Shown here piece by piece: positions 2,982 to 10,185 of a stretch of DNA of 11,314 bases. Location: positions 1 to 11,314 of the forward strand of contig JACQGZ010000144.1 of assembly GCA_016199305.1 (NCBI GenBank), in the 5' to 3' direction. Below the pieces are notes generated by a model. It saw nothing but the letters and a program-made list of their open reading frames with translations, did no database searches and had not been told where the DNA came from. Position 1 is the stretch's first letter. Each line of letters begins with the position of its first letter. Origin of the DNA: Armatimonadota bacterium. GTDB taxonomy: Bacteria; Sysuimicrobiota; Sysuimicrobiia; Sysuimicrobiales; Humicultoraceae. The translations under genes were made by a program, and so were the position numbers.

Positions 2982-3077
2982 AGGACTGGAGCGCGATTCA
3001 CCTGTAGGACCGGAAAGCGATTCACCTGGAGGACGGGAGCGCGATTCACCTGTAGGACCGGAAAGCGATTCATCTGG
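2982..3077 (+). repeat. Four tandem 24-bp repeats before ylqD
   Basis: Four contiguous 24-bp units lie at 2982-3005, 3006-3029, 3030-3053 and 3054-3077. Each starts AGGAC, carries GCGATTCAYCTG, and ends in GT or GG. Two subtypes alternate (A: ends CTGT; B: has CGGAAAGCG and ends CTGG), so the array also reads as a 48-bp unit duplicated once. The junctions give AGGA or GGAGG. The GGAGG made at the end of the last unit (3076-3080) is the ylqD Shine-Dalgarno, 5 bases before its ATG. The array fills nearly all of the 127-bp gap after khpA. In the ylqD frame it contains TAG codons, so it is not coding. Confidence 0.9.
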
Positions 3078-3085
3078 AGGCAGGC

Positions 3086-6782: not shown

Positions 6783-7157
6783 GTGAGCCAGAGGCGGCGC
6801 CGCCTCGGCCGGCGCGGCGAGTCGGCCGCCGAAGCCTTTCTCGTCCGCCGCGGGTACCGGATCCTCGCCCGCAACTACCGCTGCCCCCTCGGCGAACTCG
6901 ACCTGGTCGCCTCCGACGGGGGCGTGGTCGTCTTCGTCGAGGTGAAGACCCGGCGCGGCGCGCGGGCGGGGAGCGGAGCAGAGGCGGTCTCGGCGCGCAA
7001 GCGGTGGCGGCTGATGCGGCTGGCTCAGTTCTACCTGGCGTCGCACGGGCTGGAGGGTGTCCCCTGCCGGTTTGACGTGGTCAGCCTGTCGGTCCGTCCC
7101 TGTGGCGCGCGGGTACAATTGTGGCGCGACGCCTTTCAGCGGGGAGAGGGGGGTTGA
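6783..7157 (+). CDS. yraN: UPF0102 (YraN family) endonuclease-like protein
   Basis: This 124-residue protein has the YraN layout: LGRRGESAAEAFLVRRGYRILARNYRC, then GELDLVASDG and VVVFVEVKTRR. The Glu38/Asp40 and Glu53-x-Lys55 pairs form the D/E-xK pattern of the restriction-endonuclease-like fold. Its biochemical role is not settled; it usually lies between rnhB and comM/yifB and near dprA. The GTG 6783 fits the family N terminus. It is the last plus-strand gene before the accessory block and ends 16 bp from the end of the convergent minus-strand gene, with no strong terminator between. Confidence 0.93.
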   Translation: MSQRRRRLGRRGESAAEAFLVRRGYRILARNYRCPLGELDLVASDGGVVVFVEVKTRRGARAGSGAEAVSARKRWRLMRLAQFYLASHGLEGVPCRFDVVSLSVRPCGARVQLWRDAFQRGEGG

Positions 7158-7173
7158 CGTAGCGAGGGCTCGG

Positions 7174-8535
7174 TTAGCGGATGAAGGCCAGCACGACGCC
7201 GGTTATCAGTCCGGCCGCCGACGTCAGCGTCACCGCGATCCGCATCTGATAGGTGTAGCGGTGGTAGGCGGCGAGCCGTTCGTCGAACTCCTCATCCGCA
7301 GCCAGGTCGATTGGGCGCGGTTCGAAGACGAGGATGCCGTCGGCCGGATCGGCGAAGGGTGAGGGCAACCACACCGCCGTGTCTTCATCACGCTGACGCA
7401 CGCTCAGGGGCACGGACGCAGGCTCCGGCTCGGGCTCGAGCGCAGGCCCTGCCGCAGGGTCCGTCGCCGGTTCCGCCTCCACGGGCCACGGGGTCACTAT
7501 CGCGACACTCTCATCCGGGCCCTCTGGGGCTGCGGACGGGGCCGAAACATTCTCCATCTCAGGTGGCAAGGCGGGCGCGCCCGTGGGAGGTTCCGCGAGG
7601 ACTTCCGCAACCTGCGCGGGGACCGCCGTGGCCTCCACCGGCGAATCCACGGGGCCCTCGGCTTCCACCCGCGCATCGATCGTCTCCGCCGGCGTCGCGC
7701 TCGTCCCACCATCGAGCATCTCCGCGGCGTCGGCCGCCTCCTCTTCCGGCAGCACGGTGATGTCCCCAATCAAGTCGGGCGTTACATGCCCGTTCGCGCT
7801 GGCCGGGACGACGACGATGGTCTCAGGCTGATCGCTCTCCTCGGGGCCGGCCGCGGCGGGGGATGCCGGCAGGGCGGTGCGCCGGGCCTCTCTGAAGGCG
7901 CGCTCAACCAGGTTCACCGTGCGGATCCTTTTCCACAGGTGTGGAGGGAACCGGTGGAAGCTCAGGCAGGACGCCAGATCTCCTTCCAGGGTGCGCACCG
8001 CCGGCTCGCCCTGCTTGAGCCAGTGCGTGTGCCACTCGCGGAAGAGTCCCACGGCCGTCACCCGGTCCGGAGCAGCGAAGATCTTCCGGGCGCCGGACAG
8101 ACAGAGGCTGCGCCAGCGGGCATCGACCTTTCGCGCCAGCGCCAGCAGGCGGTGCGCCACGCAGATCTGCAATGGGGTGTCGGGGTAGGTGGCGTGGATG
8201 GCCTTGATCAGCGCGGGGTGACCGTCGGCGCTGATGAGCAGGAGATCGGGACCGATGCCGTCCGCCTTCAGGCCCGCCAGGACATCCCGCCAGGCCCGCT
8301 CCTCCTCCGCAGGGACGAGGCGCATGGTCAGGGGCCGGGGGTAGCCGTCCCGCGTCAGGCCGAGGGCGCAGAGGGCCACATCGCGGCCGCCACCGGGACG
8401 CTGCCGTCGCAGGCCGTCGAGGAGGAGAAACGCGATCTCCGCGCGCGGCGGGAGGTCGACGGTGCCGCCGGCCTCCGCGGGACTGGAGCTCACCGGCTTC
8501 CTCCTTGTCTGGGGCCAATCAGAAAGGGCTGCCAT
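7174..8535 (-). CDS. IS256/Mutator transposase core fused to Pro/Glu-rich linker and C-terminal membrane anchor
   Basis: This gene encodes 453 residues from ATG 8535, chosen because GGAGGAGGAG lies directly before it and a riboswitch ends at that site. An in-frame GTG at 8637 would place the riboswitch inside the coding region. Residues 33-220 match the catalytic core of IS256 (Mutator-type) transposases: first Asp40 in LLLDG, VALCALGLTRDGYPRPL, second Asp104 in ISADGHPALIKAI, the CxxH pair Cys125/His128 in QICVAHRL, and Glu211 in RTVNLVERAFREARRT. The normal N-terminal DNA-binding part of about 130-150 residues is reduced to about 32. The C-terminal part normally following the Glu helix is gone. 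Residues 221-380 are rich in Pro, Ala and Glu. Residues 432-452 form one transmembrane helix at the very C terminus, so the core should stay cytoplasmic. No terminal inverted repeats are seen. It looks domesticated; its function is unknown. Confidence 0.85.
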   Translation of the reverse strand: MAALSDWPQTRRKPVSSSPAEAGGTVDLPPRAEIAFLLLDGLRRQRPGGGRDVALCALGLTRDGYPRPLTMRLVPAEEERAWRDVLAGLKADGIGPDLLLISADGHPALIKAIHATYPDTPLQICVAHRLLALARKVDARWRSLCLSGARKIFAAPDRVTAVGLFREWHTHWLKQGEPAVRTLEGDLASCLSFHRFPPHLWKRIRTVNLVERAFREARRTALPASPAAAGPEESDQPETIVVVPASANGHVTPDLIGDITVLPEEEAADAAEMLDGGTSATPAETIDARVEAEGPVDSPVEATAVPAQVAEVLAEPPTGAPALPPEMENVSAPSAAPEGPDESVAIVTPWPVEAEPATDPAAGPALEPEPEPASVPLSVRQRDEDTAVWLPSPFADPADGILVFEPRPIDLAADEEFDERLAAYHRYTYQMRIAVTLTSAAGLITGVVLAFIR

Positions 8536-8543
8536 CTCCTCCT

Positions 8544-8619
8544 CCGGCAGCCCAGCTGACCCAGATGGCCCTGTGGCTTTGCGTCCCCGGATCGCTCCGG
8601 GTTTGCCTTGATCGGCCGG
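8544..8619 (-). ncRNA. Cyclic di-GMP-I (GEMM-I) riboswitch
   Basis: Read on the minus strand, the element has all the parts of a GEMM-I aptamer. GGCAAACC (8607-8600) is followed by a six-pair hairpin CCCGGA/UCCGGG closed by a GCGA GNRA tetraloop (8595-8592). Next come the core ACGCAAAGCC (8584-8575), the P3 arm (CCA/UGG and GGCC/GGUC around an internal loop), and AGCUGGGCUGCC (8557-8546). The closing helix is CCGGC (8619-8615) with GCCGG (8548-8544). The G residues before CAAACC, expected for c-di-GMP binding, are present. The last two bases of the closing helix are the first two of the GGAGG Shine-Dalgarno, with the ATG at 8535. Control is therefore probably at translation; ligand binding would favour the helix that partly hides the site, so an OFF switch is likely but not certain. 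Confidence 0.93.
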
Positions 8620-8788
8620 GTCCTCGAGGGAACCCACTCTCTACCTGCCCATGCCCGCGGCGGTTTAGTCCCGCCGTCCATCACCGCCCGACACGGGATC
8701 CCGCGCAGAGGTCTGTGGCAGCAGGTGCCGCGTCCTTCCCGATGAAAGCCTCATCCGGGCAGGTCATGGGGCGTCGGGCGCAGCGCCC
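8620..8788. other. Region between divergent genes with hairpin-forming sequences
   Basis: No gene is supported here. Two inverted repeats are visible: CGGCGG/CCGCCG around a 7-base loop (8658-8676), and CCCGATGA with TCATCCGGG around AAGCC (8738-8759, one bulged base). On the minus strand, GGGUUCC and GGACCC (about 8635-8618) can also pair just upstream of the riboswitch and use its first bases. Promoters for both flanking genes must lie here or further upstream, but no convincing -35/-10 pair was found on either strand. Short minus-strand open frames exist without a recognised protein match. Confidence 0.45.
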
Positions 8789-8796
8789 GGAGGTGA
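8775..8796 (+). promoter_or_regulatory. Hairpin abutting the ribosome-binding site of the MOSC gene
   Basis: CGGGCG (8775-8780) and CGCCCG (8784-8789) form a six-pair hairpin with a CAG loop. The 3' arm's last G is the first G of GGAGGTGA (8789-8796), a strong Shine-Dalgarno 9 bases before the GTG at 8806. The hairpin could tune translation of the MOSC gene. It is not a known riboswitch to me. Confidence 0.4.
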
Positions 8797-8805
8797 CGGA
8801 CGACG

Positions 8806-9288
8806 GTGAGCGGTGTGGTGGTGTCCATTCACATTGCGCCGGCGGCGGAAGCGCCGATGAGGGCGGTCGAGGCGGTCCTCGCCGTCCCCGGGCGTGGGCT
8901 GGAGGGGGATCGCTACTTCGCGCAGGCGGGCACGTTCTCGCCGAAGCCGGCGCCCGATCGCGATGTGACGGTGATCGAGGTGGAAGCCATTGAGGCGCTC
9001 GCGCGGGACCACGGGATCACCCTGGCGCCGGGGGAGAGCCGGCGCAACATCCTCACCCGCGGGGTGGCGCTGAACCACCTGGTGAACCGGGAGTTCCGGG
9101 TCGGGGCGGTGACGCTGCGCGGGCTGCGCCTCTGCGACCCCTGCTCGCACCTGGAGCGGCTTACCCGGCCGGGCGTCCGCAAGGCGCTGATCCACCGCGG
9201 CGGCCTGCGCTGCCAGATCCTCGGCGAGGGCACGATCCGGGTCGGGGATCCAGTCGAGGTCGCAGAGCTCGCGCCGGTCCGGCGGTGA
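8806..9288 (+). CDS. MOSC domain-containing protein
   Basis: This 160-residue stand-alone MOSC domain is the sulfur-carrier fold related to the C terminus of molybdenum cofactor sulfurase. Visible family marks are [10 protein letters not shown] (29-38), a [11 protein letters not shown] segment, [18 protein letters not shown] (77-94), and [13 protein letters not shown] (107-119), where Cys110 is the position expected for the conserved persulfide-carrying cysteine; Cys113 is a second one. Related small proteins (YiiM/YuaD type) act in Mo-cofactor-dependent detoxification or sulfur transfer; the substrate is unknown here. The start GTG 8806 has GGAGGTGA at 8789-8796. Its stop overlaps the next start as GTGA, so the RidA-like gene is co-translated. 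No other molybdenum gene is in the window. Confidence 0.9.
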
Positions 9289-9684: not shown

Positions 9685-10185
9685 GTGACGGAACGCCCGC
9701 CCGCGGGGTTCGCCATCGCCCCGCCGTTCGCGTCCGTGCTCCGCCTTCTTCATACCGGGCTTGCCGGCGGCGCGGTGCGCTGGGCGGTGGCGAGCAGCCT
9801 CGGCGTTGCATTGCCGGGAGTTCCTGTCACCCCGCGCGATGTAGACCTGCAGACCGACGAGGGCGGCGCCTACGAGATCGCGCGGCGGTTCAGCGCGTAC
9901 ATCACGCGGCCTGTGGCGTTCACCGCATCAGAGAAGATCCGCTCCCACTTCGGCACCCTGGTAATCGAAAGCATCACGGTGGAGATCATGGGCGGCATTC
10001 AGAAACGGTCGGCCGGCGGCCGCTGGGAAGACCCGGTGGATATCGCGCCCCACCTCCGTTTCGTGGAGATCGGGGGCCTGCGCATCCCCGTGCTGTCGCT
10101 CACCTACGAATACGAGGCCTACCGCGCCCTCGGCAGAACGGCGCAGGCAGACCTGCTTCTTCCCTGGGTCGACCGGCACGGCTGA
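9685..10185 (+). CDS. Nucleotidyltransferase-fold protein
   Basis: This 166-residue protein has a minimal nucleotidyltransferase (DNA polymerase beta-like) fold. The turn [16 protein letters not shown] (33-48) and the metal-binding pair RDVDLQTD (Asp52 and Asp54) match the family's G-S...D-x-D pattern, and Glu100 in VEIMG may be the third acidic residue. The remainder ([34 protein letters not shown]) resembles uncharacterised stand-alone proteins related to aminoglycoside nucleotidyltransferases and MNT-type antitoxins. The substrate is unknown and no HEPN partner is next to it. It starts at GTG 9685, one base after the RidA stop. Its 3' end is followed by 70 bp with no feature before comM. 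Confidence 0.75.

Follow-up and report, generated by a model that had tools for sequence, protein, structure and literature searches.

Results

The window, as we call the whole stretch of DNA analysed (11,314 nucleotides), is an entire contig (C100) of a draft genome of 1.58 Mb in 343 contigs that is 69% complete. It carries the gene run ylxM-rsmC-like-ffh-rpsP-KH-ylqD-rimM-trmD-rplS-lepB-rnhB-yraN and after it an open frame, 7174-8637 on the minus strand, whose product is probably a transposase-derived protein anchored in the membrane, preceded by a c-di-GMP riboswitch aptamer and a hairpin (Table 1). Just ahead of ylqD, at 2985-3085, there are about four tandem copies of a unit of about 25 bases (gcgattcacctg-aggac-gg), which include the Shine-Dalgarno-like sequence of ylqD.

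Table 1. Coordinates of the features at the locus and of three relatives found in the same phylum
Feature	Position	Strand	Basis or remark
c-di-GMP-I (GGC) riboswitch aptamer	8542..8616	-	RF03167 match
Terminator-like hairpin and short U-rich tail	8521..8553	-	stem arms 8553-8545 and 8534-8526
Shine-Dalgarno-like AAGGAGGA	8499..8506	-	sequence; 5 nt before GTG 8493
Gene for putative transposase-derived, anchored protein, 439 aa, GTG start	7174..8493	-	open frame; start as in P0001
IS256-type RNase H-like core with helical insertion, residues 20-206	7876..8436	-	PF00872, model, 6xg8 alignment, conservation
Acidic linker, predicted disordered, about residues 207-399	7297..7875	-	low pLDDT, charge
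C-terminal helix 401-438, hydrophobic from 419, GxxxG (G428, G432)	7180..7293	-	pLDDT, hydropathy, invariant Gly
Relative in G001, contig C18	L076 6014-6625	-	second Asp and Glu changed
Relative in G004, contig C28	L079 3-542	-	Glu changed; runs off contig
RodZ_C protein in G005	L077 5352-6725	-	first Asp and Glu changed

The original prediction described an IS256-type DDE core followed by a disordered linker and a C-terminal transmembrane helix, and this layout was recovered. The profile Transposase_mut (PF00872) matched residues 39-206 with 83.1 bits (cut-off 21); the match is restricted to the C-terminal part of the profile (positions 182-348 of 379), and the protein begins 25 residues before the first Asp. 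The NCBIfam model transpos_IS256 (NF033543) gave 111.1 bits, under its cut-off of 150. Both the DDE triad (D26, D90, E197) and the C/DxxH motif (C111, H114) are present in the RNase H-like core. In an AlphaFold2 model made from 65 sequences (mean pLDDT 66; 73-94 in blocks over residues 21-170 and 59-74 over 171-210), D26 is placed in the first strand, D90 just past the fourth and E197 in a late helix, and the same placement is described for the catalytic residues of Mutator-type transposases in the excerpted text of PMC3942029. The top five PDB matches of the model in Foldseek were all ISCth4 chains (E 7.7e-11 to 2.3e-9, TM-score 0.35-0.43), with the transposase chain 6xg8_A as the best (E 7.7e-11). 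By our own count on a sequence alignment, D90, C111, H114 and E197 fall on positions 244, 265, 268 and 351 of the 6xg8 chain, which would be D241, C262, H265 and E348 in the numbering of the available part of PMC7780238 if the chain has three extra residues. A Pfam scan of the window protein together with 22 homologues showed PF00872 and PF10551 only, and no RodZ_C.

Behind the core, model confidence is low from about residue 212 to 395, after which a single helix (401-438, pLDDT 82-93) is predicted, with a mean hydropathy of 2.07 from residue 419. The linker carries a net charge of -34 over 194 residues. A separate gene for the linker and tail was ruled out, as they lie in the one open frame and the homologues hold the whole layout in one protein. 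The topology, and with it the proposed tie to the membrane, is predicted from hydropathy and from a model of mean pLDDT 66.

At least 71 homologues were found among 5.8 billion proteins; the number is a lower bound, as scoring was confined to the 7993 candidates with the most words in common. Among the 72 rows formed with the window protein, every row that extends to the first Asp has it (69/69), the second Asp is present in 70/71 (P0064 has Gly), and the motif His and the Glu in all 72. In the C/DxxH motif, the Cys, reported to matter for catalysis in the available part of PMC7780238, is found in 8 of the 72 rows and replaced by Ser in the other 64. The linker and tail layout was sought in these homologues and found: a hydrophobic segment with GxxxG starts in the last 25 residues in 71 of the 72 rows (mean hydropathy 1.57-3.25), the lone exception being P0038, which has 241 residues and no linker. 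Residues D26, D90, H114, E197, G428 and G432 are invariant in a 65-row alignment (A2, made without P0001, P0010, P0038, P0040, P0064, P0067 and P0069). Linkers are acidic in all 70 rows measured (net charge -43 to -2, median -15.5), P0038 and P0064 having no measurable one. The cores are basic in 36/36 rows measured (net +4 to +13), as are 22 IS256 cores (+3 to +19); because the latter are equally basic, the basic core is inherited and gives no evidence for a new role with DNA. Most members are listed without a name and 9 of the 71 homologues as transposases of some kind, which keeps the family out of sight; they seem to be bacterial membrane proteins of an unstudied family.

The aptamer matched the family c-di-GMP-I-GGC (RF03167) in cmscan with 63.3 bits (E 2.3e-13, model 1-80), exceeding the gathering cut-off of 59. 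This confirmed the GEMM-I aptamer proposed at 8619-8544, with the edges moved by 2-3 bases. The same family was found 5' of the members in the genomes G007 (63.9 bits) and G006 (64.8 bits), and these aptamers together with the score in the window rule out a chance aptamer. Ahead of the members in G001 and G004 no aptamer was found, even at E up to 1, and the expectation that the riboswitch would be kept upstream was thus borne out for three of the five members with readable upstream DNA. The RNA-family scan covered 13 of the 29 loci L010-L038 and the wider stretches L071-L078, with L079 omitted. Two of the 75 protein records (P0010 and P0057) have N-terminal extensions that by eye read as translated aptamer; P0010 looks near-identical to the G007 protein and P0057 belongs to a different tree branch. 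With the aptamers of the three members, these extensions make the association between riboswitch and anchored family look old but not universal. Within the window's own genome RF03167 matches at 8 places, 5 of them above cut-off. Other matches lie at L144, L146, L147 and L148, and their downstream genes, read without a profile search, are those for a sigma factor and a roadblock-type protein near a PilB-like ATPase, a receiver-GGDEF protein, a CAP-domain protein and an amino-acid-binding ABC protein.

The candidate ligand-selectivity base of the window aptamer reads G by eye, on a provisional numbering against the reference letters. A G marks the c-di-GMP type and an A the cGAMP type, the numbering and the relation to G20A being those in the excerpt of PMC6274999, and cGAMP was considered as ligand in place of c-di-GMP.

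The 5' arm of the hairpin is the aptamer's own 3' strand (P3-J1/3-P1). In the window GGGCUGCCG pairs with UGGCAGCCC at -18.0 kcal/mol, a value reached by 5 of 500 dinucleotide shuffles, and the U-run behind it is weak (UUUCU). The G007 hairpin pairs GGGUUGCC with GGCAACCC at -15.5 (3/500 shuffles as low) and is followed by UUUUUCUU, and the G006 hairpin reaches -20.7 (2/500) with no U-run after it, so that control might be at translation instead in this member. Compared with the window, G007 has A for G in the P3 5' strand, U for C in the shared strand and A for G in the hairpin 3' arm, and through these compensating changes the aptamer pairing and the hairpin pairing are both kept. An expression platform that excludes the aptamer is supported by the shared strand, by the low-energy hairpins in three orthologues and by the compensating changes. 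A consensus terminator scan (loops 3-8, 5 T in 8) did not pick up the hairpin place on the gene strand, and a promoter scan found no sigma-70-like promoter ahead of the aptamer. The pilM riboswitch is described in the accessible part of PMC9262584 as an ON switch, in which terminator and aptamer are mutually exclusive and termination sequesters the ligand-pairing C75. Because the hairpin in the window likewise competes for the aptamer 3' strand, its anatomy and the compensating changes suggest an ON switch, in which c-di-GMP probably turns the gene on. For the claim that c-di-GMP sets the level of the protein there are the aptamer and the competing hairpin, and against it the two of five orthologues without an aptamer and the terminator scan.

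The aptamer had been thought to end on the Shine-Dalgarno sequence of a gene starting at ATG 8535. This codon, behind GGAGGAGGAG, falls inside the hairpin predicted at 8553-8526 and is an unlikely start. It is likely that translation begins at GTG 8493, giving the 439-residue protein, because P0001, a homologue of 94% identity, begins at the residue encoded there, because AAGGAGGA lies upstream of it and because ATG 8535 is within the hairpin; the original prediction was probably in error on this point.

Several observations indicate that the gene belongs to the host. There is one match to it in its own genome, which is 69% complete, and no inverted repeats of 14 nt or more flank it, as the six inverted pairs in 6950-8900 all lie within the gene. 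The gene run from ylxM to yraN, followed by the anchored gene, is common to the window, G007, G001 and G004; G001 and G007 are of one genus and G004 of another, both other than the window's genus. Further downstream MOSC is found in G007 and G004 and comM in G001 and G004, the G007 contig stopping before comM, and the G006 member is at a different chromosomal place, away from comM. In G005, at L075 9509-10328, what is left of the gene codes for 31 residues; its neighbours are the start of MOSC (45 residues) and a piece of comM (44 residues), with a tRNA after them, and we take the locus there to have decayed or been rearranged. Clear members are present in 5 of the 43 genomes of the phylum, each with more than 400 bits against the family profile. 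With dN/dS of 0.21-0.39 over ten pairs (NG86 values, ratio by hand), the core is, on this sequence measure, under purifying selection.

A tree of 61 rows (31 of the 71 database homologues, 5 genome members, 4 RodZ_C proteins, 2 broken relatives and 19 IS256 rows; L021, a frame of 22 residues, and the copies L089, L090 and L091 were left out) places the family, the RodZ_C proteins and the broken relatives opposite the 19 IS256 rows on a branch with 100/100 support; the bootstrap is not settled, long branches meet, and the IS256 rows are loci fetched by likeness to the family, so that unsampled IS256 lineages might fall between the two sides. Partial matches were obtained in 1778 plasmid records, none covering 80% of the query, and the five listed are annotated as IS256 transposases. 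A contig search gave three loci, two of them taken to be those of G007 and G006; the third, L041, resembles the terminal part of an ordinary IS256 enzyme. The terminal inverted repeats and several copies of an insertion sequence were not seen, with one match in a genome 69% complete, and an active insertion sequence is ruled out by the single copy, the shared slot and the lack of flanking inverted repeats. The single copy, the place shared with three other genomes, the purifying selection and the separate clade fit a domesticated transposase, as had been proposed; the G006 gene stands elsewhere. A missing GEMM-I match, many repeat-flanked copies or a separate gene for linker and helix, which were named beforehand as findings that would speak against the prediction, were all looked for and none was encountered.

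The active site is broken in three relatives from the phylum (in G001, G004 and G005; Table 1). The neighbours of the one in G004 we take to be dnaG and rpoD. In the G005 protein the core is followed by a hydrophobic segment and then RodZ_C (58.9 bits), and a search with it gave four proteins (P0072-P0075), one identical to the query, in which the catalytic Glu is Arg in 4/4, the first Asp is lost in 1/4 and the core is still basic. Judged from these sequences, the RodZ_C sister is a second membrane architecture on the same transposase core. A second RodZ_C frame of 304 aa in G005 is probably its ordinary RodZ.

Discussion

As far as sequences can establish it, a transposase has here been truncated to its catalytic core, has received an acidic linker and a tail helix with its catalytic residues conserved, and has been domesticated with a riboswitch at its side. 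We consider it rather probable that the gene encodes a c-di-GMP-switched, membrane-tethered transposase core acting on DNA near the membrane. The catalytic domain of an IS256-type transposase would have been captured by a host lineage (the relatives are named Armatimonadota). By its sequence the gene has lost the terminal repeats and the dimerisation, DNA-binding and HTH domains and has gained the acidic tether and the tail helix. When c-di-GMP is high, the bound aptamer would hold the P3/P1 strand, the hairpin could not form and the gene would be transcribed. The protein would be anchored in the inner membrane, N-terminus on the cytoplasmic side, perhaps as a pair formed through the GxxxG helix, and its basic core could reach DNA near the membrane. 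In the weakest step, the kept DDE and His suggest that metal ions still serve the protein in DNA binding there, and possibly in nicking or joining. This explanation is favoured by the aptamer, the shared-strand hairpin, the catalytic residues, the GxxxG tail, the ISCth4 fold and the host-gene evidence, and the orthologues in G001 and G004 without an aptamer, the weak U-run, the null terminator scan, the change of Cys to Ser and the Glu-less sisters stand against it. A likely role is membrane-tethered DNA binding, perhaps with cutting; DNA contact at the membrane is rated most likely, its enzyme and scaffold versions lying close to each other. Only tentatively can the protein be described further, as an inner-membrane DDE enzyme, switched by c-di-GMP, that cuts, joins or holds DNA as cells turn sessile, with a sister that took up a RodZ-like envelope domain and gave up the Glu.

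It is possible, if doubtful, that the protein is a non-enzymatic scaffold, in which the transposase fold serves as a cytoplasmic DNA- or protein-binding module on an anchor and the DDE residues are kept for the fold or for metal-dependent binding. The loss of Glu in P0072-P0075, which keep the core and the hydrophobic segment and add RodZ_C, indicates that an anchored core can serve without it and keeps this alternative alive, and the broken sites of the two further relatives (G001, G004) and the Ser in place of Cys point the same way. However, Asp, Asp, His and Glu are kept throughout the family, even though the sister group shows that they can be lost once not needed. The suggestion that catalysis had been lost is accordingly disfavoured for the window protein, which has its DDE residues, but holds for the sister proteins.

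It is improbable that the protein regulates mobile elements, as a truncated transposase on an anchor by which IS256-type transposases are sequestered or blocked. Among the 5 genomes that have the gene, none shows an IS256 match spanning at least 300 profile positions, compared with 8 of the 38 others of the phylum, but this is what chance gives (about 0.34, hand arithmetic), and the protein lacks the known domains for dimerisation and DNA binding; immunity against IS256 elements was rejected on the same counts. An ordinary decaying or chance IS256 insertion beside a riboswitch, for which one could cite the nine homologues named transposases, the degenerate relatives and the remnant, and the riboswitches acting antisense beside transposase genes for which random insertion is proposed in the available part of PMC9943018, is very improbable given the sense orientation, intact frame, purifying selection and shared slot of the gene, the anchor conserved in 71/72 rows and the riboswitch ahead of diverged orthologues.

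The membrane-tethered core that we favour resembles known systems only in parts. With the IS256 transposases, as ISCth4 TnpA (PDB 6xg8/6xgw/6xgx) is described in the excerpt of PMC7780238, it shares the RNase H-like core, the helical insertion and the placement of DDE and His. In contrast to ISCth4 TnpA, it has no counterpart of the dimerisation, DNA-binding and HTH domains that this excerpt assigns to residues 1-165, nor terminal repeats, and has the acidic linker and tail helix. The switch is like RF03167 and the pilM ON switch (PMC9262584, in the part available) in scoring over gathering and in having a hairpin that competes for the aptamer 3' strand, and unlike them in preceding a transposase-derived membrane protein and in its weak U-run. 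Unlike the antisense pairs in the accessible text of PMC9943018, the riboswitch and gene here are in sense and conserved. To RodZ (RodZ_C, PF13464) the likeness is in the sister proteins only, which have an N-terminal module, a hydrophobic segment and RodZ_C; the window protein has no RodZ_C match, and the N-terminal module of the sister is a transposase core. Domesticated DDE transposases are known, for example RAG1, and with these the gene shares a transposase core kept as a host gene, but to our knowledge none is a tail-anchored membrane protein of bacteria. Searches of the open-licence literature in PubMed Central showed no report of a domesticated transposase as a tail-anchored membrane protein or under a c-di-GMP riboswitch, in agreement with the original prediction, for which no described system of this make-up was known.

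With this family one can test whether cells employ transposase chemistry at the membrane, and it would tie c-di-GMP to DNA transactions. It also provides a natural series from the IS256 enzyme to an anchored core with an intact site and to an anchored core with a broken site and RodZ_C. If the more tentative description given above is true, a switched DDE enzyme of the membrane would represent a new path by which mobile elements enter membrane biology. The link to DNA uptake that had been proposed from the nearby comM has become weak, since the G006 member is away from comM and six relatives (G002, G003, G006, G008, G009 and G010, the G010 stretch ending about 2 kb past yraN) have rnhB-yraN without the gene beside it. 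Directly before comM in the window, at 9685-10185, there is a gene with a match to PF10706, a profile named for aminoglycoside-2''-adenylyltransferase (68.2 bits).
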